From Verrucomicrobiales bacterium (GTDB lineage: Bacteria > Verrucomicrobiota > Verrucomicrobiia > Verrucomicrobiales > DEV007): DNA of 64,000 bases. Location: contig JARGPJ010000005.1 of NCBI GenBank assembly GCA_029212615.1, positions 248,001-312,000 of the forward strand. The letters are read 5' to 3'. Position 1 is the stretch's first letter; every line of letters begins with the position of its first letter. Positions 14,566 to 40,013 of this stretch are shown here, piece after piece. The notes beneath the pieces were generated by a model. It had not been told where the DNA came from and did no database searches. It was given only the letters and a program-made list of their open reading frames with translations. Both the position numbers and the translations under genes were made by a program.

Positions 14566-15810
14566 GTGAACTGGATCTCCCTGGCCCTCCGAAACCTGCT
14601 TCGTAACAGCCGCCGTTCAATCACCACGATTGCTGCGGTCGCGCTCGGCTATTCAGCGACAAACATCTTTGCCGGATTCGCCGGCTACATGTTCGCCAGC
14701 ATTAAGGAAGCGCACATCTATGAGCAGGTAAATGGCCACGTCCAAATCTGGAAAAAAGACGCTCGCGACTACGGGGGTTCTGATCCTGCTGCCTATCTCA
14801 TCGAATCTGAAAAATTCGAGGAAATCAGGTCTCTTGCGGCGAATGATGACCGGATCGAACTGGCCGCCGGGATGCTTGAGGTCAAAGGCAATCTCGACTA
14901 CGACGGAAATCCCGGATTCTTTTTCGGACAGGCGATGGTTCCTTCTGAAAAGGACTCGATTTTCTCCCGATCCACCGCTTTGAAGAGTGCCTCAGGCCCG
15001 GGAGATATCGGTAAAGAAATCACCGACGAAACGCCCTACGCACTCTCGATCGCCCCCGGCATGGCAGAGAACCTCGGACTGGAACCGGGAACAGATGTCA
15101 TTCTCATGGCTCCATCGATCAGTGGACAGATGAATGCGGTCGATGCCCAGGTGTTTCAAATCGTTGATGTTGCTTCTGAAGCGTTGAACAATCGCTATGT
15201 CTTTATGCCGCTTGAACTGGCTCAGACCCTTTATGATACCAGCGGTGTCAGCTGTATCAGGATCCTCCTGCAGAAGGATGAAGACACCGACGCCGTCATA
15301 GCCGATCTCAGGGCGCAACTTTCACCGGAAGAGTGGGAAGTAATCCCCTGGTATGACGTCTCCCGTCTCTACCTGCGAACCAAACGAATGTTCGACATCA
15401 TCTTCGGACTCGTCTTTGTCATCATCGCGACCATTGTCATCATGTCAGTCCTCAACACCATCGGCATGGCCGTCGTCGAGCGGACACGGGAAATCGGAAC
15501 GCTCCGGGCCATCGGGTTGAAACGACCGGGAGTCGTTCGACTTTTCGGCATTGAGAGCGCCTTCCTCGGCATTATCGGTGCGCTGACCGGTTTGGTCATT
15601 ACGGTTGGCTTCGCCCTTTTTATCCATTGGCTTCAGCCGACCTGGGAACCTCCGGTCACTGCCCGGGAAATCGTCTGGGAGATCCGAATCCTACCGAAAT
15701 ACCTTCTCATGACCCTGCTCCTCCTTGTCTTCTTTACATCCCTCGCAGCGATTGCGCCGGCGCGAAGAGCATCGAAGCAAAGTATTGTCGATTCTTTGGG
15801 TCACGTTTAA
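14566..15810 (+). CDS. ABC transporter permease, FtsX/MacB/LolE type
   Basis: A 414-residue permease with the MacB/LolC-E plan: one membrane segment at the N-terminus (TTIAAVALGYSATNIFAGFA), a large periplasmic MacB-PCD-like domain (about residues 45-265), and three C-terminal membrane segments in the FtsX domain with the signature VVERTREIGTLRAIGLKRPG. The start is GTG at 14566. These permeases are not pores; they couple a cytoplasmic ATPase to mechanical work on periplasmic lipoproteins or substrates. The expected ATPase is not adjacent, which is unusual. The next gene, 13 bases downstream, encodes a LolA-like protein, which supports a role in lipoprotein or lipid extraction. Confidence 0.88.
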   Translation: MNWISLALRNLLRNSRRSITTIAAVALGYSATNIFAGFAGYMFASIKEAHIYEQVNGHVQIWKKDARDYGGSDPAAYLIESEKFEEIRSLAANDDRIELAAGMLEVKGNLDYDGNPGFFFGQAMVPSEKDSIFSRSTALKSASGPGDIGKEITDETPYALSIAPGMAENLGLEPGTDVILMAPSISGQMNAVDAQVFQIVDVASEALNNRYVFMPLELAQTLYDTSGVSCIRILLQKDEDTDAVIADLRAQLSPEEWEVIPWYDVSRLYLRTKRMFDIIFGLVFVIIATIVIMSVLNTIGMAVVERTREIGTLRAIGLKRPGVVRLFGIESAFLGIIGALTGLVITVGFALFIHWLQPTWEPPVTAREIVWEIRILPKYLLMTLLLLVFFTSLAAIAPARRASKQSIVDSLGHV

Positions 15811-15823
15811 TATCGCTACCTAC

Positions 15824-16549
15824 ATGAACTCCCGAATTCTATCCCTACTCCTTCTCGCCAGCTTTAGCACCCCACTCATCGCGGATGAGGCGGCCCTCAT
15901 TGCCGCTGAACAAGCCCGGGGAATCATGACCGGAAACACCGGCGTGCAGTGGACTGTCAGTGTTTCCGGAAACAAGAGCGCCAAGTTTGTCGCAACCTCT
16001 CAAGGGGGCAAAGTATTCGCTGAAGTGATCGAACCTGCTGAAGCACAGGGGAGGCGCTATCTCGCTGAAGCGAAAGGAAACATGTGGTTCTGGAAACCCG
16101 GAATCAGCCGCCCTGTCTCCGTCTCGAAACGCCAGCGGCTCTCCGGAGATGCCGCGATCGGAGATATTGCTTCCACCAGTTTTGTCGAAGGTTACAAGCT
16201 CGTCGGAAAGGAAGCCGGTGAAGTGAACGGCGAGGCCGCAACCGTCTATTCCTTGAAAGCAAATTCCCTGGGTGACACCTATGCCATGATTAAATATTGG
16301 GTCACCACAAACGGCAATCTCGGTAAAAAAGCTGAGTTCTACGCAAAATCAGGCACCCTCCTTCGCTCCTCAAACATGGAGTATAACAACTCAGCGAACG
16401 GTCGTCCATTTCTCTCAAAAATGCAGATTCGTGACGGGGGCAACACCATCACCCTGCAATTCTCCAACGTGAAGATCGGAAGCTATCCGGCAGCCATGTT
16501 CGAACGCGAATATCTCGGCGGCCCCAAGTCATCAGGACCCGGCCGCTGA
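15824..16549 (+). CDS. LolA-like outer-membrane lipoprotein-sorting protein
   Basis: A 241-residue periplasmic protein of the LolA/LolB-like superfamily (the family named outer membrane lipoprotein-sorting protein, PF17131 type). The ATG at 15824 starts a signal peptide (MNSRILSLLLLASFSTPLIA); the ORF track start is about 100 bases too early and lies inside the permease gene. The family stretch MWFWKPGISRPVSVSKRQRL followed by SGDAAIGDIASTSFVEGY is well conserved. It follows an FtsX-type permease by 13 bases, the common partner of this family. It probably carries a lipid or lipoprotein between membranes; the ligand is unknown. Confidence 0.82.
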   Translation: MNSRILSLLLLASFSTPLIADEAALIAAEQARGIMTGNTGVQWTVSVSGNKSAKFVATSQGGKVFAEVIEPAEAQGRRYLAEAKGNMWFWKPGISRPVSVSKRQRLSGDAAIGDIASTSFVEGYKLVGKEAGEVNGEAATVYSLKANSLGDTYAMIKYWVTTNGNLGKKAEFYAKSGTLLRSSNMEYNNSANGRPFLSKMQIRDGGNTITLQFSNVKIGSYPAAMFEREYLGGPKSSGPGR

Positions 16550-16573: not shown

Positions 16574-17944
16574 ATGTCTGCACCGGAGTTTCCAGCCGAA
16601 GAACTGGAGAACGCTGTCAGTGTCCTGCAATCACTGATCCGGTTCGATACGACCAATCCTCCCGGCAATGAACGGGAGGCAATCGAGTTTGCGGCGACAC
16701 AGTGCGAAGCAGCGGGACTCACGACCACGATTGTCGGCAAATCAGAGGCTCGCCCCAACCTTGTTGCAAAGTGGTCGGCCGGCGGGCACCGGCAGTTTAG
16801 CAGGCCCCTTATCCTGAGCTGCCATCTTGATGTGGTTCCTGCTGAGGCCCCGGCGTGGACTCACCCTCCTTTCTCAGCGCACAACGATGGAACCTACATT
16901 TGGGGCCGGGGCGCGATTGATATGAAAGGATTTGCCGCAATGGGGCTGGCGGCAATCACCCGCCTTCGGAAAGAGAATCTTCCCATCAATCGCGATCTCA
17001 TTTTTGTCGCCGTGTGCGACGAAGAAGCCGGCACTCACCACGGTTCACAGTGGCTCGTCGAGAACCATCACGAACTTCTGGGGACGAACCCGGAGTATGT
17101 CATTAACGAAGTCGGCGGATTCACCGTGCATCAGAAAGGTCGGCGATTCTATCCTGTTCAAGTCGCCGAAAAAGGAGTCGCCTGGATTCGCCTGACCGTC
17201 TCCGGAACCTCCGGGCACAGCTCGCTGCCAAGTGAAGACAATGCAGTCGTTCATCTCTCAAAAGCCATTACCGCCATCGGAAGCACCCCGCTTCCATGGC
17301 ACCCCGGCAAAGAGGTGAAGCGCTTCATTGCTGGATTCGCTGAACCTGAAGGCCCCCTTGCCCGCGCTCTTTGCCCGCTGCTTTCCCACCCCGTGATTGG
17401 ACCGAAGCTTCTCCCGCTAGCGGTCGCAAACCCGTCACGGAGGCGATCAATAGAAGCGCTCCTGCGCAATACCGCCAACCCCACCTCGCTGATCACCCAC
17501 CATCCGATCAACGTAATTCCCGCCGTCGCCTCAGTCGATATTGACGGCCGACTTGCACCGGGGCAAAGCGGCGACGATCTTATCCGGGAATTAGAAACGA
17601 TCACAGACCGTATTCCCGGAGTGACTGCCAGCTACGAAATTCTGGAGGAATCCCCCTCGGTTTCCTTTGATACCGACACAGATCTTTTCCGAAACATTGA
17701 AGAAGTCATGGCGGACGCAGATCCGGAAGGCCACCTTGTCCCGTCTATGATTCCTGGATTTACCGACAGCCGGAACTACGCAAAACTGGGAGCAAACTGC
17801 TATGGATTCTATCCTCTTCAGCTCCCTGAAGAGATTGACTTTGCTTCCCTTTTTCATGGAGTTGACGAGCGAATTCCCATCGAGGGTCTTCATTGGGGAA
17901 TCAAAACCCTCACTCGCGTCCTTCGCCGCTTCCTGACAGATTAA
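16574..17944 (+). CDS. M20 family metallopeptidase (ArgE/DapE/CPG2-like)
   Basis: A 456-residue zinc amidohydrolase. Metal-site residues can be seen: H84 and D86 in SCHLDVV, the bridging D in GRGAIDMKG, the catalytic/metal pair in DEEAG (about residues 150-153), and a C-terminal H in FHGVDERIP. A dimerisation domain begins at about residue 195 (GVAWIRLTVSGTSGHSSLPS). Family members cleave N-acyl amino acids, dipeptides or similar amides; the exact substrate cannot be assigned, so I avoid calling it ArgE or DapE. No signal peptide is present. It ends exactly where the convergent giant gene ends: its TAA is immediately followed by the other gene's TGA read in reverse. Confidence 0.88.
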   Translation: MSAPEFPAEELENAVSVLQSLIRFDTTNPPGNEREAIEFAATQCEAAGLTTTIVGKSEARPNLVAKWSAGGHRQFSRPLILSCHLDVVPAEAPAWTHPPFSAHNDGTYIWGRGAIDMKGFAAMGLAAITRLRKENLPINRDLIFVAVCDEEAGTHHGSQWLVENHHELLGTNPEYVINEVGGFTVHQKGRRFYPVQVAEKGVAWIRLTVSGTSGHSSLPSEDNAVVHLSKAITAIGSTPLPWHPGKEVKRFIAGFAEPEGPLARALCPLLSHPVIGPKLLPLAVANPSRRRSIEALLRNTANPTSLITHHPINVIPAVASVDIDGRLAPGQSGDDLIRELETITDRIPGVTASYEILEESPSVSFDTDTDLFRNIEEVMADADPEGHLVPSMIPGFTDSRNYAKLGANCYGFYPLQLPEEIDFASLFHGVDERIPIEGLHWGIKTLTRVLRRFLTD

Positions 17945-20900
17945 TCAGCGCTGAGGTGGTTTCACCTCACGCACGAGTGCTCCGTCTTTCTCACTCATGA
18001 CAAGCAGGCTGAGTGATTCAACTTCGTCGAGATCATTTGTACTGAGGCTGGCGTAATCAAATTTACCGCGCAGATCGGTGTATCCATCCTTAAAGAACTG
18101 AACGTCACCGTTCTTCATCTTTGCATAGACTTTGACATAGATCTTCGAAAGCGGGTCCTTTCGGTCCTTACCCCTTACCTCAAGTCGTCCGTAGCGTTCT
18201 GCCAGCTGCACATCAAGGCGATTAGAGAATACCGCCACCGCCGACTTTTGTCCGGCTCCGACAGTTTCCACGAGAACGTTCTTACTCGCAAACTCTTCAG
18301 GAATCTCGAACCGCCATTTGGTTTCACCCTCGGGCAGCTCTATTTTCTCCACCCGGTTGGGCTTTACATAAGCAAACTGTCCGCTGTCCCCCGAAACAAA
18401 GGGTTTGCTTGAAAAGAGGAACTCAAGATCCATCTCGTAGTAGTTCACCGTGACTGCTTCAATATTATGATAGTTCAGTTCTCCTTCCCGCCCTGCTGCT
18501 GACAATTCCAGAAATGGATCCCCGGAGGAAAGCGTCTCCCCGTCCGGAAGCTCTTTATCTCCGGACTTTTTCCCTGTCACTTCGGTCAGTTGACGGGACA
18601 CTTCGGCAAACTTCCTCCTCCAATGCTCTACCGGGTAATCTTCATATTCGTCGGAAATCGCGCCCGCCGTTTTTAAGTCCTCCCGGTAGAATGCGGCATA
18701 CGCGGAGAGGTAGTCATACTGCAAAGTTGAAGACAACTCCTTCGCCTCCACAGATTCCTGCCAGGCGAGCCCCTCCTCGATACGATCCTGAAGAAATAGA
18801 TAGGCAGAAACAGCAAGACGATCCTCATTCGAAATCTCAGGCTTATAACTCAGGAGCTGCAATTTCGAAAGATACTGCGCCCTGAAACGATCATTCAAAA
18901 TACTGCGTTCCCGACCGAGTCGATGGGCACGCGCGTTTACAAGCGGAGAATACTCCAGGTGCTGATACCAGTTTCGGTCCACCGGATCAATACTGACCAA
19001 CTCACTCTCAATCCACATCCCTGCCTGCCTTAAAAAGGCTTCCTGATGCTTCAGATACTCCTGCGCGACGCTGTTCTCCCCATAGTAGAGTCCATAACTC
19101 CAGAGAGTGTCATCGTAGCCGTGACGCTCCGCGATAAGTGAGGTTACCTCACGAAAGAAATCAATATCTTCACGCATCCTCCAGGCGATCCTGCTCAGAT
19201 TGATGCGGTGCAGATTTGCACCCATCAAATAGCTGAGCACATCCTCTCCTGAACCTTCCTGAGAAAGATAATCCCAGGAGGCTTCATCAATATTGGAAAG
19301 ACGTTCAACCACATTAAAAGTTGCCCTCGCACCGCTTGCGATAACTTTTTCATCTTTGGCAACCTGAGCAGGAAAAGAAGTGAACACCTCCCCTTCCGAA
19401 GGTTTCGGAAAATAGAAACTCACCTCAAGGCGCCTCGTCGAAAACGGATCGAGCGAAAGTGGGTAGGACTTCGTGTAATCACTCCCGCCAACAGGAACCG
19501 AACCTGCCGGAATTTGCAGAAGCAAGTCAAGACGATGGGTGGTTGAAGTGGGGTTGGTAACCACGACCTGACTCCCATAAACAACACCGACGAGAAATTC
19601 ATCCGTTACAAACTTGTCTTCCTTTTCTCCGTTCACAATTCGAAATCGATCATCAGCCCGGTAAAAATTCTGACTTACGAGGACAGGTGCCTCGTCTTCG
19701 ACAACTTCGCCCTCCTCAATCTCTTCGTGAAAAACGATCAGCGGGGACCTGGCCGTAAGCTGCATTTCGTTAGCATTGATCGTGACGCCATGCTCTTCTC
19801 CTTCAAAGGGAAGGTCCAGAACACTCAACGCAAACATCATCTCAGTGAAATTTCGAGTCGCCGCGGTAAACTCCCGGGAATAGAAGCCGCCCTCACCATT
19901 CCAATTCGCAAAATCCTTCCAGAAACCATTGACCGGAATGAGCTCAGCGTTCTGTTGATCGACAGGCAACTCAAAATAGTTGTTCTCCGCCCATTCCCTC
20001 GTCGATTCAATCTGACGGAAAAGCCGCTCACTGATTGCTTCCTCCCTGATCTGTCGCACTTGCGCAGCGTCCATATCCAACCCGCGGCCGCCGATAGACC
20101 CCCGGGCCTGCATCGCGGGACGAGCGACCAATTGCGCCACTGCCGCCGGCTCTTCCATGATATTTCCTTCGAAGCGATCTTCAGAACTGTGACCGTAAGC
20201 CAGTTCCGGCACAGGCATAGCAAACGCGACTTCATCACCCACCGCACCGGACCTGCGGCCACGAAGAGCCTGTGCGAAATTGAATGCGGCCAGACTGTCA
20301 TCCTTCGGAATGAGTTCATAAAGGCTCACGACATGATCAGCAGTTGATGATCGCCAATCCCCTCCCAATCGCCGCCCAAGAAGAATTCGTTCCACGATGT
20401 TCAAGCGACTGAACTCCCATGGAGCGAGGAAGGCCTCCAGATTCTCCCCGAGGAGGTATCGATCAATAAAGGTTTTATCCTTCTTGTGAGCGAGATAGGG
20501 CCGCACGACCTTCTCAAAGAAGTCCTTATCTTTCTCCGCAAGAAAAACATGTAACTCGTGAGAGGCAAACTTTGCATAGAGCCTTCTCTTTTCAGAATCC
20601 TCAAGGGACGGCCACTTTGTAACAAAACCAAACCGGGTAAAGTCGGGGTCCGAATTAATTGCCAGCAAGGTGGAATAGACTTCGCTCAAGGTATCATATA
20701 CCTCGAGCTCGGCGGAACGAAGATCGTCGATCGTCAGTGATTCTCCGGCGTGAAGAAGCGTCACCTTTCGCTGCTGAGTATATGACTTCTTTTCGTCAAA
20801 AGATCGCTCAAGGCGAAGATCTTTAAAAGGAACAGGATCATCCGGCGCAGACAGCGCCAACTGCCTCGACGCCGATTCGTTGGCATTAACAACCATCAAC

Positions 20901-23900
20901 TGAAGATGTTGACGCCCTTTCAAAACCTCCTTGTTCAGTTCGAGGCGACCGTCTTCCCCCGGTTCGAGATTTGTTAACACCAATGATGGTTGCTCGAGAA
21001 ACTGAAGCGAAGGGGAACTCACCGCCCGTAGCGGCGCCGGAGCACTCTGCGTCGGCATCGCACCCGGCTTAGCTCGACTCGCTGTTTTCATCTCCCGGCC
21101 CTTCCGGTAGGCGTCACCCTCTTCCGCTTCATCCAATTCAGTACTTGTCTCATTCAGCTCCCACGGATTCAGGAGTAGACCGGGTCGATCCAACATATTC
21201 CCCGGATAGTGGGTCATGGAGCGGCGTTCCAGAATGTAGCGATACTCTTCACCGATATCGCGCCCTGAAACATAGAGAGATCTATTGCTTCCTCTAGAGA
21301 TACGGAAGAGCGGTAGCTCTTTGGCATTCTTCAGACTCTCGTATGGATCAAAAGAAGGGAGGAATCTCGTCGCAACAAGATGAACCCTGGTTAGCTTATC
21401 GGAATTTTTGACTTCAATGACTATTTTATCCCCATCTTCCTCAAACGAAGAAATATAGAGTGGCGTTGAATCTGACGCCTGTAGATGTCTACTCCCGGAA
21501 AGCGCGTATCCAGCCACCTTGCCGGTTGACTCCGTGACATGTATATCAACAACTTTCCCCTCTCTCCGGAAATACGCACGATAGTCCCCACGGGCCAGGC
21601 CTCTAAGCTCCAGCGCGCCACTCGCTAAAGAGACCGAACTGAACTTATCCTGAGCCGGGACTCCTGATCGAATCTCGAACAAAGCGAAGTCGCTTCGCGA
21701 AAGAGCCTCGATACTGGCGGCTATCGGAAGAATCACTACTTCGCCTGCCATAGCGTGAACTGAGCCGGGGAGTTCGTAGCGACCGTCCTCAAGCTTCCAC
21801 TGGCGGGGTTCTGCACCATTGCCGGAGACTTGTAGCCGAACTATCTCTCCAAGCGGTCCCAACTGAATGCGCCCCGAACTGTCAGATTTAAGCACCGCCG
21901 AATGAGGACGCGAGAAATCATCATGCGTGAGAGTCAACGAAACGGGTTGATCCACGACCGCTTCACCGGACTTCCCGAGAACCTCCAGATAGTATCCCTC
22001 TTCGAACCGGCTCAGAAACAAATCAAAAACCTGCTCATTTGTGTCAGTCCCATTTACCTGAAAATCTCTCCGGGCGCTATATCTCTCCGGTTCACCGGGT
22101 GCACTGACAAGTGGAATCCCCCCTTCAAGAGTAACCTGAATATTTTGAAGGCGTGGCGGCACTCGAAAAGCATGACCAGATTCCCGATCATCAAAGAGAG
22201 GAAAGTCATCCACCTCGACGATGGATTCTATACCGTCCTGATCAGTCGTCTTAATTCGAAGCGTTGGATTCTCAAGGAGAGAGCTTGAGACAGGCTCTCC
22301 GTTTAAACTCAATTGAGGGCGGACCGTGATCACTGATTCACGACCGGCAATGAGGCTCTCTTGCTCAAGAAAGAAACCCGCGTCGAGTGAGTAGGTTTCC
22401 CGAGGCAGATCGAGAGTAACCAGACTCGAAATCTCACCATCGGAAAGAATCACTGACGCTGCTCCTGCCTCCGAGAACGGCAGCAGAATAGATCCTTCCG
22501 CGGACGCGTCATACCGCTTTCCGCCGAAAAGAGCGAAAGCATTTTTCACCCACTCATTCTCCTCGCTCAAGACCTGGATCATCTCACCACCGGGAGTCGT
22601 CGTCGAAAGGTACTGAAGCTTACCCTTCCGAACAAGTGCACGCGAACTGATGCCATTCCCGATCAATTCCACCACCCAAACGCCGCGTTTTCCGCTCAAC
22701 GACTCGAAGGAAAACACCTCACTATGTCGAATCATCGAAGTATCGTCATATTTGTAACGCTTCTCCTCATTCGCGACGAGACCATCTAAATTGAGGTCGG
22801 TATTGATCTCACGTTGCTGATCCAGGTAGTAGGCGTGCGAATTGATCTCATAGACTTTAACGAGGAGATCACTGACATTTTTTACGGCAACTTTCAGCAC
22901 GACCTCGTCATCCGATCCGAAGGAAGCGGGGTTATCAGGAAGGAAAGAAATCTCTACACGTTCCTTGATTGACTGAACTTGGGCGGGAGTGAGCAGGGAA
23001 AAATATTCAGCAGGATCACCAAGCCCCCCAACCAACTTTGTCTCTGCAAAAACCTCCTTCAAATAGTCCTCCCGGAGATAGGCACTGAATCGCTGATAGG
23101 ATTCATCTTCGACAAATGCTGCCTCCAGAAAGTGACGAACAATTGCTTCATCATTCATGATGGGAGGGAATCCCGTCGTTGAAGAAAAATCGGCGTTGAG
23201 GTCAGCCATCGCTACCTGTTGACTCCTTCCCTCGAGGTAACGGGGCGACATATATGCGGCCGGACGCGGCAACTGGAGATAGCTCAGAAATTCATCCAAC
23301 GGAAACTCGCCTCGCGCCCGTGCTTCGGAAAGCCGCTGGTGCAGAACTGAAACTTTCAGGGAATTGAAAGCGGGGGCGAGTTGACTAACATAAGACCATA
23401 ATCGATCAAGATATGCCTGCCGTTCCTCGGCGGAATGTTCAAGATCAATATCTCCATTCGGACGCAAACGAAGAAGCTTTGCATCCACAAAGGCAGGGCT
23501 CGCGGCCAGCTCCGGGCGAAGTCCCTCCAATTCGTCCAGCTGCGCGAGCGTCAACTGTAAATGAATCGGGAACTCACCGAACCCGCGGCTCTCGCGAGTC
23601 CTCAGATCAGCTGCGATGAGACCAACCAGTCTCTCATAGTCAGGAAAGGTAAGCCGGCTCAGTAGTTCGCGACGCTGTGCAGGATTCAATTCCCTTTCCT
23701 CACGAAGAAGTCGATCAAGACCGGAATCCTCGATCTGACCAATGCTATCCCGGCTAATTGAGCGATCATAAAACGATTCCCATGAAATCTCTTCTTCATT
23801 GAGGGCTGTCGGAAAATCAGGTTTCCTGTCCAGTTTCGCCTGCTCATGATCGAAGCGAAGCCCCAGCTGTCTCTTCAGGTAGGCCAGCGAACCTTCTTTA

Positions 23901-24235
23901 TCAGTCGAATAGGAGAGTAATGCCTGACGATGACGAATTTCATTTACCCGAACCGTTTCGCCATGACGCTTGATCCAGGGCTCAAGAAATCCGGCAACTT
24001 CGTCGAGCCGCCCTTCCTGCTGCGCGAGCAACGCTGAGTAGTAGTAGTAATCCTCAGTCCCCGGTACCAGTTCCCTGAGAATTGATCCCCGGTCTTCGGC
24101 AAGGGCAAAGCGTTCCAGGAAGCCAAAGCTTTCGTTGGCTCTAACAGAAAAAGGTAAAGGCATGAGGAGGAGGGTAATAAACAGAAGGTTGATTCCGATT
24201 CGGAGATCCAGCGACGAGGCAGCGTGAGGTTTCAT
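17945..24235 (-). CDS. Giant secreted protein (2,096 aa), cysteine-free, possibly alpha-2-macroglobulin-like
   Basis: A very large exported protein with a signal peptide (hydrophobic core INLLFITLLLMPLPFSV). I cannot name a family with certainty. Residues about 35-420 are helical; about 440-1040 and 1600-1720 are rich in beta strands resembling macroglobulin-type sandwich domains; about 1040-1065 is a low-complexity linker (KTASRAKPGAMPTQSAPAP); 1700-1920 is helical; and the last 100 residues form a beta domain containing KDGYTDLRGKFDYASLS. Reading the whole translation I found no cysteine, so there is no thioester motif of alpha-2-macroglobulins and no disulfide. The gene follows a terminator and is probably monocistronic. 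It abuts the M20 gene at its 3' end. A surface or periplasmic structural or protease-trapping role is speculation. Confidence 0.8.
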   Translation of the reverse strand: MKPHAASSLDLRIGINLLFITLLLMPLPFSVRANESFGFLERFALAEDRGSILRELVPGTEDYYYYSALLAQQEGRLDEVAGFLEPWIKRHGETVRVNEIRHRQALLSYSTDKEGSLAYLKRQLGLRFDHEQAKLDRKPDFPTALNEEEISWESFYDRSISRDSIGQIEDSGLDRLLREERELNPAQRRELLSRLTFPDYERLVGLIAADLRTRESRGFGEFPIHLQLTLAQLDELEGLRPELAASPAFVDAKLLRLRPNGDIDLEHSAEERQAYLDRLWSYVSQLAPAFNSLKVSVLHQRLSEARARGEFPLDEFLSYLQLPRPAAYMSPRYLEGRSQQVAMADLNADFSSTTGFPPIMNDEAIVRHFLEAAFVEDESYQRFSAYLREDYLKEVFAETKLVGGLGDPAEYFSLLTPAQVQSIKERVEISFLPDNPASFGSDDEVVLKVAVKNVSDLLVKVYEINSHAYYLDQQREINTDLNLDGLVANEEKRYKYDDTSMIRHSEVFSFESLSGKRGVWVVELIGNGISSRALVRKGKLQYLSTTTPGGEMIQVLSEENEWVKNAFALFGGKRYDASAEGSILLPFSEAGAASVILSDGEISSLVTLDLPRETYSLDAGFFLEQESLIAGRESVITVRPQLSLNGEPVSSSLLENPTLRIKTTDQDGIESIVEVDDFPLFDDRESGHAFRVPPRLQNIQVTLEGGIPLVSAPGEPERYSARRDFQVNGTDTNEQVFDLFLSRFEEGYYLEVLGKSGEAVVDQPVSLTLTHDDFSRPHSAVLKSDSSGRIQLGPLGEIVRLQVSGNGAEPRQWKLEDGRYELPGSVHAMAGEVVILPIAASIEALSRSDFALFEIRSGVPAQDKFSSVSLASGALELRGLARGDYRAYFRREGKVVDIHVTESTGKVAGYALSGSRHLQASDSTPLYISSFEEDGDKIVIEVKNSDKLTRVHLVATRFLPSFDPYESLKNAKELPLFRISRGSNRSLYVSGRDIGEEYRYILERRSMTHYPGNMLDRPGLLLNPWELNETSTELDEAEEGDAYRKGREMKTASRAKPGAMPTQSAPAPLRAVSSPSLQFLEQPSLVLTNLEPGEDGRLELNKEVLKGRQHLQLMVVNANESASRQLALSAPDDPVPFKDLRLERSFDEKKSYTQQRKVTLLHAGESLTIDDLRSAELEVYDTLSEVYSTLLAINSDPDFTRFGFVTKWPSLEDSEKRRLYAKFASHELHVFLAEKDKDFFEKVVRPYLAHKKDKTFIDRYLLGENLEAFLAPWEFSRLNIVERILLGRRLGGDWRSSTADHVVSLYELIPKDDSLAAFNFAQALRGRRSGAVGDEVAFAMPVPELAYGHSSEDRFEGNIMEEPAAVAQLVARPAMQARGSIGGRGLDMDAAQVRQIREEAISERLFRQIESTREWAENNYFELPVDQQNAELIPVNGFWKDFANWNGEGGFYSREFTAATRNFTEMMFALSVLDLPFEGEEHGVTINANEMQLTARSPLIVFHEEIEEGEVVEDEAPVLVSQNFYRADDRFRIVNGEKEDKFVTDEFLVGVVYGSQVVVTNPTSTTHRLDLLLQIPAGSVPVGGSDYTKSYPLSLDPFSTRRLEVSFYFPKPSEGEVFTSFPAQVAKDEKVIASGARATFNVVERLSNIDEASWDYLSQEGSGEDVLSYLMGANLHRINLSRIAWRMREDIDFFREVTSLIAERHGYDDTLWSYGLYYGENSVAQEYLKHQEAFLRQAGMWIESELVSIDPVDRNWYQHLEYSPLVNARAHRLGRERSILNDRFRAQYLSKLQLLSYKPEISNEDRLAVSAYLFLQDRIEEGLAWQESVEAKELSSTLQYDYLSAYAAFYREDLKTAGAISDEYEDYPVEHWRRKFAEVSRQLTEVTGKKSGDKELPDGETLSSGDPFLELSAAGREGELNYHNIEAVTVNYYEMDLEFLFSSKPFVSGDSGQFAYVKPNRVEKIELPEGETKWRFEIPEEFASKNVLVETVGAGQKSAVAVFSNRLDVQLAERYGRLEVRGKDRKDPLSKIYVKVYAKMKNGDVQFFKDGYTDLRGKFDYASLSTNDLDEVESLSLLVMSEKDGALVREVKPPQR

Positions 24236-24342: not shown

Positions 24343-24369
24343 AAAAGCGACCCGGAAAGGGCCGCTTTT
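24343..24369 (-). terminator. Rho-independent terminator of the DUF1501-PPC-PSCyt operon
   Basis: AAAAGCG-A-CCC pairs with GGG-C-CGCTTTT around a GGAAA loop (one internal mismatch). On the minus strand the stem is followed by a T-run. It lies 39 bases past the stop of the PSCyt/PSD1 gene and before the giant-protein gene, so it separates the two transcription units. Confidence 0.75.
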
Positions 24370-24408: not shown

Positions 24409-27240
24409 TCAGTGGTTGAACATGAACTCCTTGGAATTCAAAACTGCCCAGAAGACATCATTCAAGACCAATTCAATCTGAGCCTTGTCTTCACCAACAG
24501 CGTTTACCTGCGCCATCAACTGTTTCTTCTCCTCCGCTGTCGGCTTTCGAGTGAACGAACGAATATAGAGATCATCGATCACTTCTTCGGGTTTCTTTCC
24601 TGCCGCAAGAAGAGACTTCACGACCTTCCCTTTCTCAATCTTCGACGTCACCGTCGGACCATTCAAGAGGTGCAATGCCTGGGAAAGACTTGGATCCATC
24701 ACCACTTCACAGGAGCACACCGTTTCCCGTGTCGCCCGTCCGAAGGTCGTCAAAAAGTAGTCAGTCGTCTGACCATCAGCAATCTGCACGGCTCTGGAAC
24801 CAAGAGGCAAGCCCTTGAATTTGTTCTGCGTCACGGTTACCTGAGTGATCGTATCGAGCATGACCTCAGCACGTTGACGACGAACACGAGCCCTCGCAAA
24901 ATTGTTCATGTCATCCTTATTCGAAGGCGTCGCTTTCGTCGTGCGCTGATAAGTAGCTGAATTACAAATATCCCTTACCAACTGTTTAAAGTCGTAGCCA
25001 TACTCCCCTTCGAATCGGGACGCCAGCGCGTGAAGAAGTTCAGGATTGGAGGCCGGATTACTCACGCGAACGTCGTCCACCGGATCAATGATTCCAACAC
25101 CCAGGAAGTGAGACCAGACGATATTCACGATATTGCTCGCAAAATAAGGATTGTCAGGTGAGGCCAACCACTCAGCTAAAACCTCCCGGCGGTCTTTTCC
25201 TTTCACGTCCGGAACATCACCACCAAGAAACTTAGGAGCCATCGATTTACCCCCAATCAAATGCTTCACCTCACCGCTGCCGCGATTGTAAACAATTTGC
25301 TCACGCTGATCGACCCCCTGTTTCCGTCCGATCTGCGAGAAGAAGGCAGCCCAGCTGTAGTAGTCATCCATCGTCCAGCGGTCGAAGGGATGGTTGTGGC
25401 ACTGCGCGCACTGAAGACGCATCCCCATAAATACCTGGGCTACGTTTTCCGAAAGCTTTAATGAATCCCGCTCAACCTGGTAAAAATTTGTGGCAGGGTT
25501 CGAAAAGGTTCCACCCTCTGAGCTGATCAAATCAATCACCCACTCATTTAATGGCTCGTTCGCCGCAATCTGATCACGCAACCAACCGTTATAAAGAAGA
25601 GCAGACTTGTAGGAAATCCCGAGATTGATGTTCTGATCAGAGCGGATTTGCAGCAGTTCAGACCACTTCATGACCCACATCTCGGTGAACTCTTTCCGCT
25701 CCAGCAACTGGTCAACGAGCTTCTCGCGTTTCTTCGGATCCTTATCCGCCACAAAGCTGTGGTATTCCTCCACCGTTGGAAGTTGCCCAACGATATCAAG
25801 GGAGACGCGACGAAGAAACTCATCATCGGAACATTGGCCCGAAGGAACCATTCTCAGCTTATGCAGTTTATCGTGAACGAAGCCGTCGATATAATTGTTC
25901 TCCGTCATTTCCGGACGGGTGTAATCAAGCCCCTCAGGTATCACAATCGTTTGGATGCCCACTGTTTTCGTTTCATAACGAGCCATGATGAAAGCCTCCC
26001 CGCGTTTTCCAGCGGTGATCTTACCAAATTCATCAACTGCTGCAGTCGGCTCATTGTTTGTTACAAATGACGCGAGATGGGTGACATCCCGATCGTGACC
26101 ATCTGAATACTTAGCGCGAATCGTGAGCTGCTGCTGGGCCCCTGAACCTTCGAGCACCAGTTTCGGAGGATAGACTTCAAGAGCGACCACGGTGGGAAGA
26201 TTCTTCGGATCATCATTTGTCGCGCCGTCAGCGATCCACTCGACCATGGTATTATAGCCGTGCCCGCCCTTTTCCATGAGCTTTCCTCCTGTGTGAGGAA
26301 CTGCCTCAATGGACTTCTCAACGAGCAGGGATTCCTCAGGAATCGCGAGATTGATACGGTAGCCGGCCAATTCGCGCGTCAGGCGAAAATGATCACCATC
26401 AGGATCATAACCAAACAACGAAAGCATGAAGCCGTCCTGCCCGCGGGCCGATCCATGACAGGCCCCCGTATTACAGCCCTCGCGCATAAACACCGGCATC
26501 ACGTCGAGGTTAAAACTAATTGGCCTGTCCTCAGCCGCCTGGGTAACCGAAACCGGAAGCTTCACTGATTTATCCGCCACCTTGATCGAAAGCTCCGTTT
26601 TTCCATCCTTGACCGGGATGAAGTGATTTCGGGTCTTCAGCGCGATAAGAGAGGGATCTCCAAAGGTAAATGTCGCATTCGCCGTGACATCCAGCGTTGT
26701 GTCATCATCGTAGGTGGCCATGACCACAACAGATTGAGTATCCCGCTTTTTCTCGAGATTTATGTCTTGAGGAAAAGCTTCGATCTTGACGATTTTTTTC
26801 CCATTATCAGCAAGCGGTTCAGCCCCCTTAAAATCGTCTTCATTGCGGGCCGTTAGCAGCAACTCTTCCGGCCAGCTGGCGCCTTCTTTAATCCACTGGC
26901 GAAGCTTCGCAATTTCATGATCATGAAGGGTGCGTCCTTCCGGAGGCATCACATCCATGTCATCAGAAGGCAACTCGACCATTTCAATCATGAGCGAATT
27001 ATCAGGCTCCCCTTTCACGAGCGCCGGACCGCCGTCGCCTCCTTCGAAGAAAAGAGCTGCCTGATCAAAACGAAGACCACCTTTTACTTTTGCCTCGTGA
27101 TGACATTTAACGCAGTTGAACTCGAGAATCGGCTGGATGTCTTTCACAAAATCAATCCCGGAATCAGCATTCCCCTCCGCGCGGAGCGAAACACCGGCGG
27201 CACATACAAGAATAAGGAAGAGACGAATCGGATTTTTCAT
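24409..27240 (-). CDS. PSCyt1/PSCyt2/PSD1 multi-domain protein with cytochrome c motifs (DUF1549/DUF1553)
   Basis: A 943-residue exported protein of the Planctomycete cytochrome type. After the signal peptide comes PSCyt1 with the heme motif CVKCH (residues 43-47) and a possible axial methionine in MPPEG. A second cluster, CNTGACH, lies near residue 260. A bacterial Ig-like (BIG2) segment follows (LEVYPPKLVLEGSGAQQQLT), then DUF1549/PSCyt2 and DUF1553/PSD1, with another CAQCH near residue 610. It is the last gene of a three-gene operon (DUF1501, PPC, this) with gaps of 29 and 48 bases. The biochemical role of the family is not established; links to polysaccharide use have been proposed from genomic context. 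Confidence 0.9.
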   Translation of the reverse strand: MKNPIRLFLILVCAAGVSLRAEGNADSGIDFVKDIQPILEFNCVKCHHEAKVKGGLRFDQAALFFEGGDGGPALVKGEPDNSLMIEMVELPSDDMDVMPPEGRTLHDHEIAKLRQWIKEGASWPEELLLTARNEDDFKGAEPLADNGKKIVKIEAFPQDINLEKKRDTQSVVVMATYDDDTTLDVTANATFTFGDPSLIALKTRNHFIPVKDGKTELSIKVADKSVKLPVSVTQAAEDRPISFNLDVMPVFMREGCNTGACHGSARGQDGFMLSLFGYDPDGDHFRLTRELAGYRINLAIPEESLLVEKSIEAVPHTGGKLMEKGGHGYNTMVEWIADGATNDDPKNLPTVVALEVYPPKLVLEGSGAQQQLTIRAKYSDGHDRDVTHLASFVTNNEPTAAVDEFGKITAGKRGEAFIMARYETKTVGIQTIVIPEGLDYTRPEMTENNYIDGFVHDKLHKLRMVPSGQCSDDEFLRRVSLDIVGQLPTVEEYHSFVADKDPKKREKLVDQLLERKEFTEMWVMKWSELLQIRSDQNINLGISYKSALLYNGWLRDQIAANEPLNEWVIDLISSEGGTFSNPATNFYQVERDSLKLSENVAQVFMGMRLQCAQCHNHPFDRWTMDDYYSWAAFFSQIGRKQGVDQREQIVYNRGSGEVKHLIGGKSMAPKFLGGDVPDVKGKDRREVLAEWLASPDNPYFASNIVNIVWSHFLGVGIIDPVDDVRVSNPASNPELLHALASRFEGEYGYDFKQLVRDICNSATYQRTTKATPSNKDDMNNFARARVRRQRAEVMLDTITQVTVTQNKFKGLPLGSRAVQIADGQTTDYFLTTFGRATRETVCSCEVVMDPSLSQALHLLNGPTVTSKIEKGKVVKSLLAAGKKPEEVIDDLYIRSFTRKPTAEEKKQLMAQVNAVGEDKAQIELVLNDVFWAVLNSKEFMFNH

Positions 27241-27288
27241 TCTGCTGGTTTGGAAAAAGGAGGCATACGCCTCACAGGGAATTCAATT

Positions 27289-29784
27289 TTACTGACTTGA
27301 TGACTCTTTCTGAGCCTCCAGGCGGAGCTGCTCCAACCTTGAAAGAGGCTTTTCTTTTGCCTCATTGCTGGCGACCACTTTCTCACCGGAAGCAGGCTTC
27401 TCAGCGACAGGCTCTTTCGGTTTGGGATCAACACGGAAAACACCGCCCATGCCGACTCGATGAACCACCGGCTCACCGTTCTGTAATACGGTCACCGTGC
27501 AAAAAAGGTTTTTATGCTGCCCTACCGGAGTCTTCTCAGTCGTTTGAATCGGAAGACGAAGTTCTTCAGTTTTCTGATCAATTTTCAGTACGGGAACCGT
27601 CGCGTGAGCAGGAACAGCAAAGAGCTGCACATCCGCCTGACCGCTAAACTCGCGGAGATTCTCGACTTCAGCAAGCATCTCGATCGACTCCCCCTGCTTG
27701 GCCGTCGCCATCGAAAGCTTCATGTTCACAAAAGGCTCCTCAACATCCAGCTTCACAAATGGCGCGGCCGACATCATGACACCTTTACCGCCATCAGATT
27801 CAGAAATCACGGTGACGTTCCAGGAGTTTATCTCCGCAGTCGCATTCGCATTCAACTCATACTCCAATTCCGTGTCCTTCTCCCCGAAGGTCATCGTCGA
27901 AGGACTTGTGATACCCGGAGGCTTCCAGAGAAACCTCACCGTAATCTTCTTGTCATAACCATCCTTCCGATGGGCACGCACTTTCAGCTTTTTAGTCCCG
28001 TTGCGAACGATCGGTGACTTCGGTTGGTCAATGGTGATGCTGTAGGGGATCTCCTCAACAACCGCGACAGGCAGCTTCTCGTGATAGCGAGTGTAATATT
28101 CCACCCCGTTTTGCGGCCCCCTCACCAGATCAATGCCCTGTTTAAACAAGCCTTCAACCGGCTTCTCCTGATCAACCGTCTTCACCTTCAACTCATACAT
28201 CCCCCCCGCAATGGGAGCGTCAGGAGCTGCCTTCAAAAGAATAGGAAACTGGCTCACCGTTTTCGGAATGGTACCGGACTCCCAGGTCACCCCTTTCGGA
28301 AGATCGGGCAGATCAAAAACCAATTCACCCGAAACACTCCGGCGCGTGGTGTTGACGACCATGGCGTAGTAACCTCCACGCGGCACATTAAATTGCTTTC
28401 GATACTGCAGATCCCGTCGAAGCATTTCAGGCATCGTCACTTCAATACGCGGGCTCGAGGCTACCGCTTCGATCCGATAAACATAGTCGGCTCCGCCGCG
28501 ATCCAGCATATCCTTCACACGCACATAGTATTCACCGTCCTCAGCCGCTTTCAGATCGACCTGACTGTCCTTCGTACCGTTGGCATCATCGGAACCACCG
28601 GCTGACTTAAACTTCGCATCGTAGAGGTTCAAAACCGGATCTACCGGAGAGCCAATTGTATCAGCATAAACTTTAAAGCGAAAACTCTGCCCCTTCTTAG
28701 CAGTGAACTTAAAAATATCGATATCCCCCTCTTTTTCGAGAATACCGTTAAAAGCCAGGGGCAGGGCACCCAACACCTTGATCGCAGGCTCACGAAGCTC
28801 ATCATTTGGCTCCGCCTCGAGAACGTTTGTCAAGTCACTCACCCTGACCGGGTTAGGTGAGGGAGGAAACAGACCATCCTGCTTCGCAAGAACGCCGAAA
28901 GTTCCCTCTTCTGTCGTCAATGGAAGGGTTGCCCCCGTCTTGTATTCACCCTTCACATCGCCGAGCATCGTAAATTCCATTTCTTCACCGGGTTTCCCTC
29001 CCGCGGGAAATATGCCGGTTGGCCGTGGAAAGGTTCCGATATGAGCACGGTAAGCTCCCCGCCCCTGATAGGCTGAATCACGAATTTCGACAATGTAGTC
29101 CCCATCTTCGGGTATAACCATCGAGAGGATGGACTCCTGCTTTAAGAGTGCGGACCCATCCGCGGAAGCGAGTTCGAAACCGTCTTTGTTGAAGATAGAC
29201 ACAAAGGGGTCAATCGCGATCCTCTGCCGGATGTTATTGATCCGCAACCCTTCAACCTCTACCGAGAGCCGTTGCCCCTTCTTCATCGAAACCTGATAAA
29301 AATCAGTCTCCTCCGCCTTCGCCTCAGCTTCGATCGTTACATTGAGATCTATTTTCTGCGGGACATCAAAGTCATCATTCGGCTCGACTTCAGCCACATT
29401 CGGAAATTGGGAAACCCAGAAGTTCCTGGCATAACTGATACCGCTCTTACAGCGAACGCGTAGATGATGCTCCCCGAGCCGGCAATCAGGCGCAATAACC
29501 AGAGTCGCCTCAACCTTCTTATTATCAAGGACGTTCAGCTCTTTGACCGTGATTCCGGGGTAATGAAAAATAATTTCCTCTGCGTCTTCAAGACGATTAC
29601 CGAAAAAGGTCACCTTCGTTTCCACCCCGCGTTGAGCTCCCCGGGGAGTTGTGTTTTGGAGGTCGGGAGAAGCAGCCTCAAGAAGAGCACTCGAAAAAAG
29701 CACCGCAAGCAGACAAGCTGCCGCGGCCACCTTCTTCAGAGAGGACCTCTGGACCGCACCCTGAATTGTCAGAATACGTTTCAT
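27289..29784 (-). CDS. Exported PPC-domain protein of the DUF1501/PSCyt operon
   Basis: An 831-residue secreted protein. The signal peptide lies after an extended basic start (hydrophobic core VAAAACLLAVLFSSALLEA). The mature protein opens with an IPT/TIG-like segment (TTPRGAQRGVETKVTFFG), then carries two bacterial pre-peptidase C-terminal (PPC) type beta domains (VEPNDDFDVPQKIDLN ... and AEPNDELREPAIKVLG ...), each with the acidic EPND signature, followed by further beta-sandwich segments. The C-terminus is Lys/Glu rich. PPC domains are usually non-catalytic accessory modules on secreted enzymes; here there is no protease domain. It is the middle gene of the operon, which implies a complex or shared pathway with DUF1501 and PSCyt proteins. 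Confidence 0.85.
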   Translation of the reverse strand: MKRILTIQGAVQRSSLKKVAAAACLLAVLFSSALLEAASPDLQNTTPRGAQRGVETKVTFFGNRLEDAEEIIFHYPGITVKELNVLDNKKVEATLVIAPDCRLGEHHLRVRCKSGISYARNFWVSQFPNVAEVEPNDDFDVPQKIDLNVTIEAEAKAEETDFYQVSMKKGQRLSVEVEGLRINNIRQRIAIDPFVSIFNKDGFELASADGSALLKQESILSMVIPEDGDYIVEIRDSAYQGRGAYRAHIGTFPRPTGIFPAGGKPGEEMEFTMLGDVKGEYKTGATLPLTTEEGTFGVLAKQDGLFPPSPNPVRVSDLTNVLEAEPNDELREPAIKVLGALPLAFNGILEKEGDIDIFKFTAKKGQSFRFKVYADTIGSPVDPVLNLYDAKFKSAGGSDDANGTKDSQVDLKAAEDGEYYVRVKDMLDRGGADYVYRIEAVASSPRIEVTMPEMLRRDLQYRKQFNVPRGGYYAMVVNTTRRSVSGELVFDLPDLPKGVTWESGTIPKTVSQFPILLKAAPDAPIAGGMYELKVKTVDQEKPVEGLFKQGIDLVRGPQNGVEYYTRYHEKLPVAVVEEIPYSITIDQPKSPIVRNGTKKLKVRAHRKDGYDKKITVRFLWKPPGITSPSTMTFGEKDTELEYELNANATAEINSWNVTVISESDGGKGVMMSAAPFVKLDVEEPFVNMKLSMATAKQGESIEMLAEVENLREFSGQADVQLFAVPAHATVPVLKIDQKTEELRLPIQTTEKTPVGQHKNLFCTVTVLQNGEPVVHRVGMGGVFRVDPKPKEPVAEKPASGEKVVASNEAKEKPLSRLEQLRLEAQKESSSQ

Positions 29785-29813
29785 GAATGGGGAAGATAAA
29801 AAAATACCGATAC

Positions 29814-31142
29814 CTAACTCTTCGCGAGAAGCTCCTTGATGACACTTCCGCCATCAACAATCTCCATCGGGCGCGGCCCGGGAGCGATAAGTTCTTTGTC
29901 AGCATTGATTCCGAGCTGGTTGTAAACCGTCTTGGCAAATGACTGAACATCGACAGGGTTCGTATCAGGCTCTGAGGCAAGAGAGTCAGAGGATCCGTAG
30001 ACAAAGCCACGCTTCACGCCTCCACCCGCAAGCATGGTGGAGAAGACACGGGGCCAGTGATCACGGCCGTCAGTCTTGTTAATTTTCGGCGTCCGTCCGA
30101 ATTCCGAGGTAACCATCACCAGAGTCGAATCAAGGAGGCCTCGCTCATCAAGATCAGTGAGGAGAGTCGCAAGAGCCTTATCAAACGCAGGAACATGACG
30201 TCCGATATTATCCTTAATCTTGTCGTGGTGATCCCAACTCCCGTAAGTCATGGTTACGAGGCGAACCCCTGACTCCACGAGTCGACGGGAAAGAAGCATG
30301 CGCATTCCGGCAGCGTTCTTGCCGTAACGATCTTTCATCTTGTCGTCCTCTTTCGTGAGATCAAAGGCATCACGGGCTTCCGCAGAACCAATCAGGCTGT
30401 ATGCCTTCTGGTAAAAGTCATCCATCGCGTCAATTGAATCCGCCTGCTCCATGTTACGGAAATGACTGTCCACCGCCTCAAGAAGAGTGCGACGACGCTC
30501 AAAGCGGGCTCCATCAACTCCACCCGGGAGAGTGAGGTCACGCACCTTGAAATTCTTTATGTCAGCAGGGTCACTACCAACGGAAAAAGGACCATACATC
30601 GAACTGAGATAGCCGGTCCCTGCGAATTCATTCGGAGAATTTGGAACACAAACATAAGGAGGAAGGTTCTTTCTCGGCCCGAATTCGTGAGAAACCACCG
30701 AACCAAAAGACGGGAAACTGATCGCCGGACTCGGCCGGTAACCGGTAAACATATTGTGAGTGCCGCGCTCATGAGCCGCCTCACCATGGGTCATGGACCG
30801 GATCACGGTCATCTTGTCCGCAACTTTAGCGAGATTCTTGAAGTTCTCACTGAACTGCAAACCGTCGACATTTGTGTTAATCGCCTTGTATGGCCCGCGG
30901 TATTCGGAAGGAGCATACGGCTTCGGGTCCCATGTTTCCTGTTGAGCCATCCCGCCCGGCAAGTAAATATGAATAAGCGACTTAGCGACCCCCTCTTTCG
31001 ATTCGTAGAACTTCGCCTGCCCTTTTGCCTCCACCTTCAATAGCTCAGGAAGTGAGAGACCTACCCCACCGGCAAAGCCGACTTGGAGGAACTCGCGACG
31101 GTTCGCTAGACCGGAATTAAAGAAGCTTGAACAGCCTTTCAT
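29814..31142 (-). CDS. DUF1501 family protein, Tat-exported
   Basis: A 442-residue protein of the DUF1501 family, distantly related to the alkaline phosphatase/sulfatase fold. The N-terminus carries a Tat-type signal (NRREFLQVGFAGGVGLSLPE), so it is probably exported folded. Family segments seen include IHIYLPGGMAQQETWDPKP, SMTHGEAAHERGTHNMFTGY, YGSWDHHDKIKDN and VMVTSEFGRTPKINKTDGRDHWP, which contain the conserved His and Asp residues expected for metal binding. It is the first gene of the operon with PPC and PSCyt/PSD1 genes. Its substrate is unknown. Confidence 0.92.
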   Translation of the reverse strand: MKGCSSFFNSGLANRREFLQVGFAGGVGLSLPELLKVEAKGQAKFYESKEGVAKSLIHIYLPGGMAQQETWDPKPYAPSEYRGPYKAINTNVDGLQFSENFKNLAKVADKMTVIRSMTHGEAAHERGTHNMFTGYRPSPAISFPSFGSVVSHEFGPRKNLPPYVCVPNSPNEFAGTGYLSSMYGPFSVGSDPADIKNFKVRDLTLPGGVDGARFERRRTLLEAVDSHFRNMEQADSIDAMDDFYQKAYSLIGSAEARDAFDLTKEDDKMKDRYGKNAAGMRMLLSRRLVESGVRLVTMTYGSWDHHDKIKDNIGRHVPAFDKALATLLTDLDERGLLDSTLVMVTSEFGRTPKINKTDGRDHWPRVFSTMLAGGGVKRGFVYGSSDSLASEPDTNPVDVQSFAKTVYNQLGINADKELIAPGPRPMEIVDGGSVIKELLAKS

Positions 31143-38814: not shown

Positions 38815-38942
38815 CGCTTCTGATCATCGGCGGAAGGTCACTCAGGTCAAGGCTCTAAAAAAAGTTTCAATCTCCCTGTTACCTTTCCGGCCGGATTGCT
38901 CAATACCAGGTGAACCCGAATAAAACCTATTCTTCAAACCAC

Positions 38943-40013
38943 ATGAAACTGTATTCAAAAATATCCCGCAATCTCATCGCCATCACCTCTGTGATCGGAC
39001 TGGGAACGTTAACCCTGACCTCTCCCGCAAACGCCCAACTCCCGGCTGAGACGGATTCTATTAAGGAAAATACAAACGACACCGGATTTCGAATCCGAAC
39101 GAAACCACTCGGAGATGGCACCGTCCTGGTCACGCTTACCGGCGAATTTCAAAAGGGGGCACCTGAAGCGCATGCCGTCGCGCAGGCCTTTTCCCAAGGC
39201 GGATTAGCAAGCCTCGTCGGCTCTGATGCCGCGGACAGCTTCGACGGCGGCGATGGGCCCGACTACCTCCAAAGCAACGCTCTCGTCGGCTCTGATGCCG
39301 CGGACAGCTTCGACGGCGGCGATGGGCCCGACTACCTCCAAAGCAACGCTCTCGTCGGCTCTGATGCCGCAGACAGCTTTGACGGCGGCGATGGTCCCGA
39401 CTACCTCCAAAGCAACGCTCTCGTCGGCTCTGATGCCGCAGACAGCTTTGACGGCGGCGATGGTCCCGACTACCTCCAAAGCAACGCTCTCGTCGGCTCT
39501 GATGCCGCAGACAGCCTCGTTGGATCGGACGCCGCGGACAGCTTCACCCCCCCGTTTGACGGCGGTGACGGCCCTGACTATTTCACCAACCTTGAACTGC
39601 AGCTTCTCGCACATCAGGAGGACATGCCGACCATCCGAAGGATCGCCGAAGCCATCACCGATGTGGTGACAATGGCTTACGACAGCCTCCCCATTTCGAT
39701 CCCCGCCAATGAACTCAAAACGAACGGCAACGAAGTCGCTCTTTCCGAAGCCTACCGGGTTTCATTGAATTTCAGCAGCGATGGAATGGCGACGATCCAA
39801 TCACTCGATCAAAGAAATATTGAAGAGCGTTGGTTCAACTGGAGCCTGCTCTACCCTTCACCAGAGGCAGAAATCATATCAGCGCTCGCTTTTGACCTCG
39901 ATTCTCTTCTCATCGAAAAAGAATTCGAAGTGCTGGAAGACAACGAATTTGACGAAGCGGTCGAGCTGGCTCTGATCGATACCCTTCTCTTCTTCGGATT
40001 TTTTGCCCATTAG
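38943..40013 (+). CDS. Secreted tandem-repeat protein with RTX-like motifs
   Basis: A 356-residue secreted protein, unknown family. The ATG at 38943 starts a signal peptide (MKLYSKISRNLIAITSVIGL ... ANAQ); the track's GTG at 38910 is a less likely start. About residues 91-220 consist of a 23-residue repeat (LVGSDAADSFDGGDGPDYLQ SNA) present four times in full, plus a truncated copy and a diverged final copy. The segment GGDGPDYLQ matches the calcium-binding RTX nonapeptide pattern GGxGxDxLx, and GSDAADSFD is a degenerate version. The remaining C-terminal 140 residues are acidic and have no recognised domain. There is no type I secretion gene nearby. It is flanked by the sigma-kinase operon (divergent) and ends at a double hairpin. 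Confidence 0.82.
   Translation: MKLYSKISRNLIAITSVIGLGTLTLTSPANAQLPAETDSIKENTNDTGFRIRTKPLGDGTVLVTLTGEFQKGAPEAHAVAQAFSQGGLASLVGSDAADSFDGGDGPDYLQSNALVGSDAADSFDGGDGPDYLQSNALVGSDAADSFDGGDGPDYLQSNALVGSDAADSFDGGDGPDYLQSNALVGSDAADSLVGSDAADSFTPPFDGGDGPDYFTNLELQLLAHQEDMPTIRRIAEAITDVVTMAYDSLPISIPANELKTNGNEVALSEAYRVSLNFSSDGMATIQSLDQRNIEERWFNWSLLYPSPEAEIISALAFDLDSLLIEKEFEVLEDNEFDEAVELALIDTLLFFGFFAH
39213..39587 (+). repeat. 69-bp in-frame tandem repeat array
   Basis: Four full 69-base units start at 39213, 39282, 39351 and 39420, then a 27-base partial unit at 39489 and a diverged unit from 39516. Units 1 and 2 are identical; units 3 and 4 are identical; the two pairs differ at three synonymous sites (GCG/GCA, TTC/TTT, GGG/GGT). 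The last unit contains a run of seven C. The repeat keeps several other frames open, which explains the shadow ORFs here. Confidence 0.95.

Follow-up and report, generated by a model that had tools for sequence, protein, structure and literature searches.

The window analysed here, a stretch of 64,000 nucleotides from a Verrucomicrobiales bacterium (assembly GCA_029212615.1, contig JARGPJ010000005.1, positions 248,001 to 312,000), encodes a protein of 2,096 amino acids that is very probably a bacterial CAGE protein. This identification is based on architecture, size, distribution and predicted export, and not on a direct match to a eukaryotic CAGE sequence. Profile comparisons indicate that the core of the protein family almost certainly shares an ancestor with alpha-2-macroglobulin (A2M). 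As the best overall explanation, we tentatively propose an exported CAGE-type shell with an A2M-derived core, which would entrap a protease or other client non-covalently. Two findings go beyond the preprint on CAGE: the family is homologous to A2M at the sequence level, in a collinear stretch that takes in the bait position, and its first macroglobulin pair recurs as a duplicate at the C-terminus.

The gene (17945..24235, minus strand) is an intact frame of 2,096 codons running from 24235 to 17945, supported by the open reading frame (ORF) and by full-length homologues, and is present in a single copy in the source genome. The original prediction had named no strand; all features of the gene given below lie on the minus strand. 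Residues 1-33 (24137..24235) form a predicted Sec signal peptide, with the cut expected between V-R-A and N, and a comparable hydrophobic N-terminus occurs in every full-length same-genus homologue. Beyond the signal peptide, no second strong hydrophobic segment was found in the protein. Therefore, the protein is predicted to be exported and soluble, in agreement with the export originally proposed, and we infer an extracytoplasmic location.

Homology of the core to alpha-2-macroglobulin

Homologues were found in 32 of 57 near relatives and in 35 of 289 genomes sampled across the phylum, and no relatives were found among the plasmids and viral contigs searched. A profile of 40 family members was compared with a profile of 53 Verrucomicrobiota A2Ms gathered across the phylum. 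The two profiles matched over 609 collinear columns (E = 7.9e-12, probability 97.5%), aligning family residues 425-1116 (20888..22963) with A2M residues 260-1126. According to landmarks taken from the source genome's own A2M, this match starts in the pre-bMG3 domain, continues through bMG3, MG2 and the bait-region domain, crosses the bait position and ends within the opening strands of the Pfam A2M domain. Controls gave 0.67 for a reversed profile and 0.32 and 0.38 for two unrelated neighbourhood families. Smaller, order-level A2M profiles already matched the same region (E = 0.0028 and 0.00026). After the bait position, the isolated segment 1078-1135 matched A2M weakly (E = 0.0026) at the same place in three A2M profiles, and residues 1080-1127 (20855..20998) weakly matched the beginning of Pfam A2M (PF00207). 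The macroglobulin-like beta segments suspected from the sequence at the outset are thus borne out by profile comparison.

The C-terminus also showed similarity to the beginning of A2M. Residues 1917-2084 matched the first A2M domain pair (A2M 280-467; E = 2.2e-6), and an internal duplication was detected between residues 446-570 and 1917-2037 (E = 2.5e-5; reversed control, 0.16). Therefore, these sequence comparisons place the C-terminal signature domain in a repeat of the domain pair with which the macroglobulin chain opens. The family alignment has conserved blocks along the entire chain. It includes the signature KDGYTDLRGKFDY (residues 2049-2061; 18053..18091), and the C-terminal KDGYTDLRG..DY block shows little or no variation across the family. 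TDLRGKFDY is the counterpart of the TD..G....f turn in the macroglobulin fold. The suggestion that this domain is the conserved signature of an unnamed family therefore stands, as the family has no name in Pfam or NCBIfam. A literature search for the signature peptide found no mention of it.

Structure models pointed in the same direction. AlphaFold2 (AF2) models were built from only five or six sequences (the window protein and five relatives). In a Foldseek search with the N-terminal model, the best 39 of 350,542 PDB chains were all A2M, CD109, TEP1, complement or bacterial A2M (E down to 2e-11). With the C-terminal model, the top match was the NIE-MG1 part of Escherichia coli A2M (TM-score 0.54 on the target).

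Pfam, NCBIfam and PADLOC scans of the 2,096-residue protein gave no match. The Pfam models MG2, A2M, TED and bMG10 remained below the cut-off, and the A2M of the source genome passed the same test. Comparison of 18 family members with Pfam yielded stray weak matches only, including CarboxypepD_reg (E = 0.0017) in two members, and searches of PDB sequences with the single sequence and with the profile returned nothing meaningful. The thioester motif CxEQ was found in none of 53 family sequences and is impossible in the window protein, which has no cysteine, so that the original statement that an A2M-type thioester cannot be present is confirmed. The helical blocks 1139-1480 and 1651-1887 showed no TED similarity in any window test. 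An A[CS]HEL motif was considered as a decayed thioester and the two helical blocks as a TED, and both were rejected for lack of statistical support. Residues 1484-1645 were not accepted as MG7 or MG10, since they reached only E ~0.01 in restricted windows. The missing thioester does not by itself separate the protein from macroglobulins, because Type II bacterial A2Ms such as MagD are without a thioester and yet trap a protease (PMC5764988).

The source genome encodes a separate, genuine A2M (locus L088, 4277-9643) with bMG3, MG2, the bait-region domain, A2M, TED and bMG10 in Pfam and a GCVEQ thioester. This gene adjoins a PBP1C-type transglycosylase/transpeptidase gene (L088, 9671-11995), the classical Type I arrangement. 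Like Type I bacterial A2Ms (ECAM, Salmonella A2M and the L088 protein), the window protein is large and apparently exported, and it is homologous to them over residues 425-1116. Unlike them, it has no CxEQ and no detectable TED or bMG10, is not encoded next to PBP1C, carries extra helical regions in its N- and C-terminal parts and repeats its first macroglobulin pair at the C-terminus. It resembles the Type II A2M MagD of Pseudomonas aeruginosa in having a thioester-less macroglobulin chain, export and a variable bait-like linker. However, MagD keeps recognisable A2M domains and belongs to the six-gene mag operon (PMC5764988), whereas the window protein is unmatched by Pfam A2M models. Neighbours of the mag operon are absent around the giant gene, which is flanked instead by DUF1501, PPC, PSCyt2/PSD1 and peptidase M20 genes. 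Other Verrucomicrobiota MG2/A2M proteins of about 2,000 residues (for example, those of loci L083, L085 and L092) share size, export and a macroglobulin chain with the window protein, but they match Pfam MG2/A2M and many keep CxEQ; they form a separate family that co-exists with the present one in the same genomes.

Correspondence with the CAGE shell protein

The CAGE complex is a homotetrameric hollow shell of ~1 MDa from Tetrahymena cilia and Dictyostelium, where the protein is AbpF (McCafferty et al. 2025 preprint, PMC12485934). CAGE has no Pfam domains, and A2M is the best fold match for its domains 4 and 6. Its homologues are commonest in Planctomycetota and Verrucomicrobiota, where they carry signal peptides (PMC12485934). 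The published order is alpha, beta (six sandwich domains, with a split domain 8), alpha with a large insertion, beta, alpha and beta. In the CAGE1 map, the segments are alpha 1-443, beta 444-1021 and 1151-1195, beta 1215-1244, alpha 1244-1414, a gap, alpha 1519-1559, beta 1606-1738, alpha 1751-2011 and beta 2014-2215 (PMC12485934).

The window protein has this architecture. Its AF2 model gives alpha at ~36-426, beta at 428-956 and 1085-1127, beta at 1150-1180, alpha at 1183-1324 and then a variable gap. It continues, in a low-confidence model backed by conserved sequence blocks, with mostly alpha at 1390-1472, beta at 1484-1645, alpha at 1651-1887 and beta at 1901-2096. Segment lengths in the window protein and CAGE1 are 529 and 578 residues for the main beta segment, 128 and 130 for the gap after it, 43 and 45 for the beta segment that follows and 31 and 30 for the short beta segment. 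The remaining values are 142 and 171 for the helical region, 65 and 105 for the variable gap, 162 and 133 for the next beta segment, 237 and 261 for the last helical region and 196 and 202 for the C-terminal beta segment. The window family also has A2M-like beta domains, no Pfam domain, members with signal peptides and a distribution across Verrucomicrobiota, in keeping with the bacterial export and prevalence in PVC bacteria described for CAGE. Thus, the likeness to Tetrahymena CAGE1 (I7MLD7) and Dictyostelium AbpF comprises a length of ~2,100-2,200 residues, an alpha-beta-alpha-beta-alpha-beta order with near-equal segments, bacterial signal peptides and prevalence in Verrucomicrobiota. The two differ in that a tetramer and a cavity have been seen in eukaryotic CAGE, whereas the window protein is known from its sequence and weak models and is likened to CAGE through the published map. 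The reported likeness between CAGE helical domains 1 and 13 was not visible at the sequence level in the window family.

The model-based and alignment-based features can be placed on this map. The N-terminal all-alpha region (~36-426; 22958..24130) takes the position of CAGE domains 1-2 and showed no similarity to A2M. The macroglobulin chain contains, at the A2M bait-region position, hypervariable linker 1 (residues 1028-1079; 20999..21154), located by alignment and entropy; across the family it is 48-88 residues long, with a mean identity of 25% to the window protein. The helical region 1183-1324 (20264..20689), from the low-confidence model, occupies the position of CAGE domain 11. It contains the A[CS]HEL motif (1225-1228; window 20552-20563), in which His is invariant and Cys and Ser are interchangeable, each occurring in roughly half of the family. 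Hypervariable linker 2 (residues 1327-1396; 20048..20257) is rich in Ala and Gly, ranges from 61 to 317 residues and has a mean identity of 15% to the window protein. It is followed by a conserved, mostly helical region (residues 1397-1480; 19796..20047) with the blocks EWAENNY...GGFYSREF...FTEMMFALSVLDLPF. In the model, a beta domain (1484-1645; 19301..19786) lies at the position of CAGE domain 12 and a helical region (1651-1887; 18575..19285) at that of domains 13-14, and the C-terminal macroglobulin pair (1901-2096; 17948..18535), defined by profile and Foldseek, stands at that of domain 15.

Possible mode of action and alternatives

In the proposed mechanism, the protein would be exported through the inner membrane, and, as in eukaryotic CAGE, four chains of ~230 kDa would close into a hollow shell of ~0.9-1 MDa. 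A protease or other client might then enter the shell, or might cut the hypervariable linker that is exposed where A2M has its bait. The shell would hold its client physically and with no covalent bond, as thioester-less Type II A2Ms do. A variable linker is indeed found at the bait position between homologous flanks, and alpha-helical regions fill much of the remaining chain. Entrapment of proteases specifically is a possibility that we hold with some reserve. Since the bacterial protein is placed outside the cytoplasm and has kept the bait position, we rate a protease trap above a general container, by a narrow margin.

Several observations weigh against this reading. Comparison of the A2M profile with the PPC family gave E = 0.009, a level that generic beta-sandwich similarity can therefore reach. 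The AF2 models are weak, with mean pLDDT of 57.5 (N-terminal) and 39.4 (C-terminal) and pTM of 0.27 and 0.25, and the Foldseek TM-score of ~0.12 for the N-terminal model means that it does not predict how the domains are arranged. The PDB sequence set searched held no CAGE sequence matching the window protein. Linker 1, the candidate bait, is hypervariable, but linker 2 is even more variable. Finally, the authors of the CAGE study saw no cargo and leave function open, listing chaperone, container or protease trap as options (PMC12485934).

An alternative is that the protein is not CAGE at all but an unrelated giant envelope protein of Verrucomicrobiota, in which macroglobulin-like beta domains serve as a structural or adhesive scaffold. 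The low model confidence and an identification made with no direct sequence comparison to eukaryotic CAGE speak for it. However, the domain lengths agree with CAGE1 nearly segment by segment, and CAGE is reported to be prevalent in the very phylum of the window protein, which makes this alternative improbable. If the protein is a CAGE shell, it might instead be a holdase or container for extracytoplasmic clients unrelated to proteases, with ancestry explaining only the fold and the linkers acting as spacers. This is nearly as plausible as a protease trap. The CAGE authors lean towards a chaperone or container and describe varied partners within the shell (PMC12485934). TED and thioester are undetectable in the window family, and its most variable linker (1327-1396, 61-317 residues) lies away from the bait position. 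Eukaryotic CAGE resides in the cytosol or in cilia, a setting in which trapping secreted proteases makes less sense. Yet the bacterial family is exported, like A2M, and a variable linker is kept exactly at the bait position between homologous flanks.

The entrapment model can be extended to the whole CAGE family, a proposal that we regard as rather unlikely in its entirety. CAGE would then be a branch of the A2M superfamily that lost TED, acquired helical regions, duplicated its first macroglobulin pair and became a tetrameric shell; bacterial members would be non-covalent protease traps baited in linker 1, and eukaryotic relatives would have inherited a macroglobulin-type container. The 2025 description presented CAGE as a conserved cage of megadalton size, with unexplained function and origin and only single-domain fold matches to A2M. 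The collinear match would turn this partial resemblance into common descent, and a concrete, testable mechanism with a specific site, linker 1, would follow for CAGE. Single-copy bacterial members with signal peptides provide a convenient system for such tests.

Cysteine content and gene surroundings

The protein was originally singled out for having no cysteine, and a recount by script found 0 Cys among its 2,096 residues; neither TGT nor TGC occurs as a codon in the frame. Exported-like proteins of nearby loci contain 0.56% Cys on average, from which ~12 would be expected in 2,096 residues, and zero is rare against this pool; its mean is pushed up by haem-binding (CxxCH) proteins. The first interpretation was that cysteine had been excluded by selection for an exposed or oxidising location or for a structural role. 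The zero count itself and the low cysteine content of exported proteins (0.56% versus 0.92%) are in its favour, but the homologues make it highly improbable. Full-length same-genus relatives have 0-6 Cys (mean 2.3), so that zero is expected by Poisson in ~8% of cases, and relatives elsewhere in the phylum have ~10 on average and up to 35 (1.7%), the latter in a protein of the same architecture. At two semi-conserved positions, the window protein merely has another residue: S1225 (20561..20563) and A1738 (19022..19024) are Cys in 21 and 17 of 40 family members, respectively. Thus, cysteine is tolerated in the family and was lost along the source lineage, and its absence is a minor lineage quirk and no selected family trait. 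With ordinary cysteine content in homologues, named in advance as the finding that would count against a special role, selection against cysteine is unsupported. We propose that the absence is a by-product of an extracytoplasmic protein needing no disulphides. The anomaly is minor, and what the family gains is a probable ancestry and a testable mechanism.

Three more ORFs of the window have no cysteine (15725-16549, 38910-40013 and 56106-56693, all on the plus strand), the first two with exported-like N-termini; therefore, Cys-free proteins are not unusual in the window. A true A2M of 1,783 residues from elsewhere in the phylum (L146) has its thioester Cys as its sole cysteine and illustrates how Cys-poor exported giants can be.

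The giant gene follows a row of genes for DUF1501, PPC-domain and cytochrome-like PSCyt1/PSCyt2/PSD1 proteins (24409-31142, minus strand) in the window and in eight other same-genus loci. This order could suggest that the protein is a functional partner of the upstream set, which we consider very unlikely. A terminator-like hairpin with a T tail (24343..24369, minus strand) separates the upstream PSCyt2/PSD1 gene from the giant gene, within an intergenic gap of 173 bp. In two same-genus loci, and in every locus outside the genus, the giant gene occurs without these neighbours. For these reasons an operon with the DUF1501/PPC/PSD1 set was rejected, and the giant gene is best read, from sequence features, as its own transcription unit. 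Downstream, a convergent peptidase M20 gene (16574-17944, plus strand) meets the giant gene stop to stop at 17944/17945, with zero bases between them.

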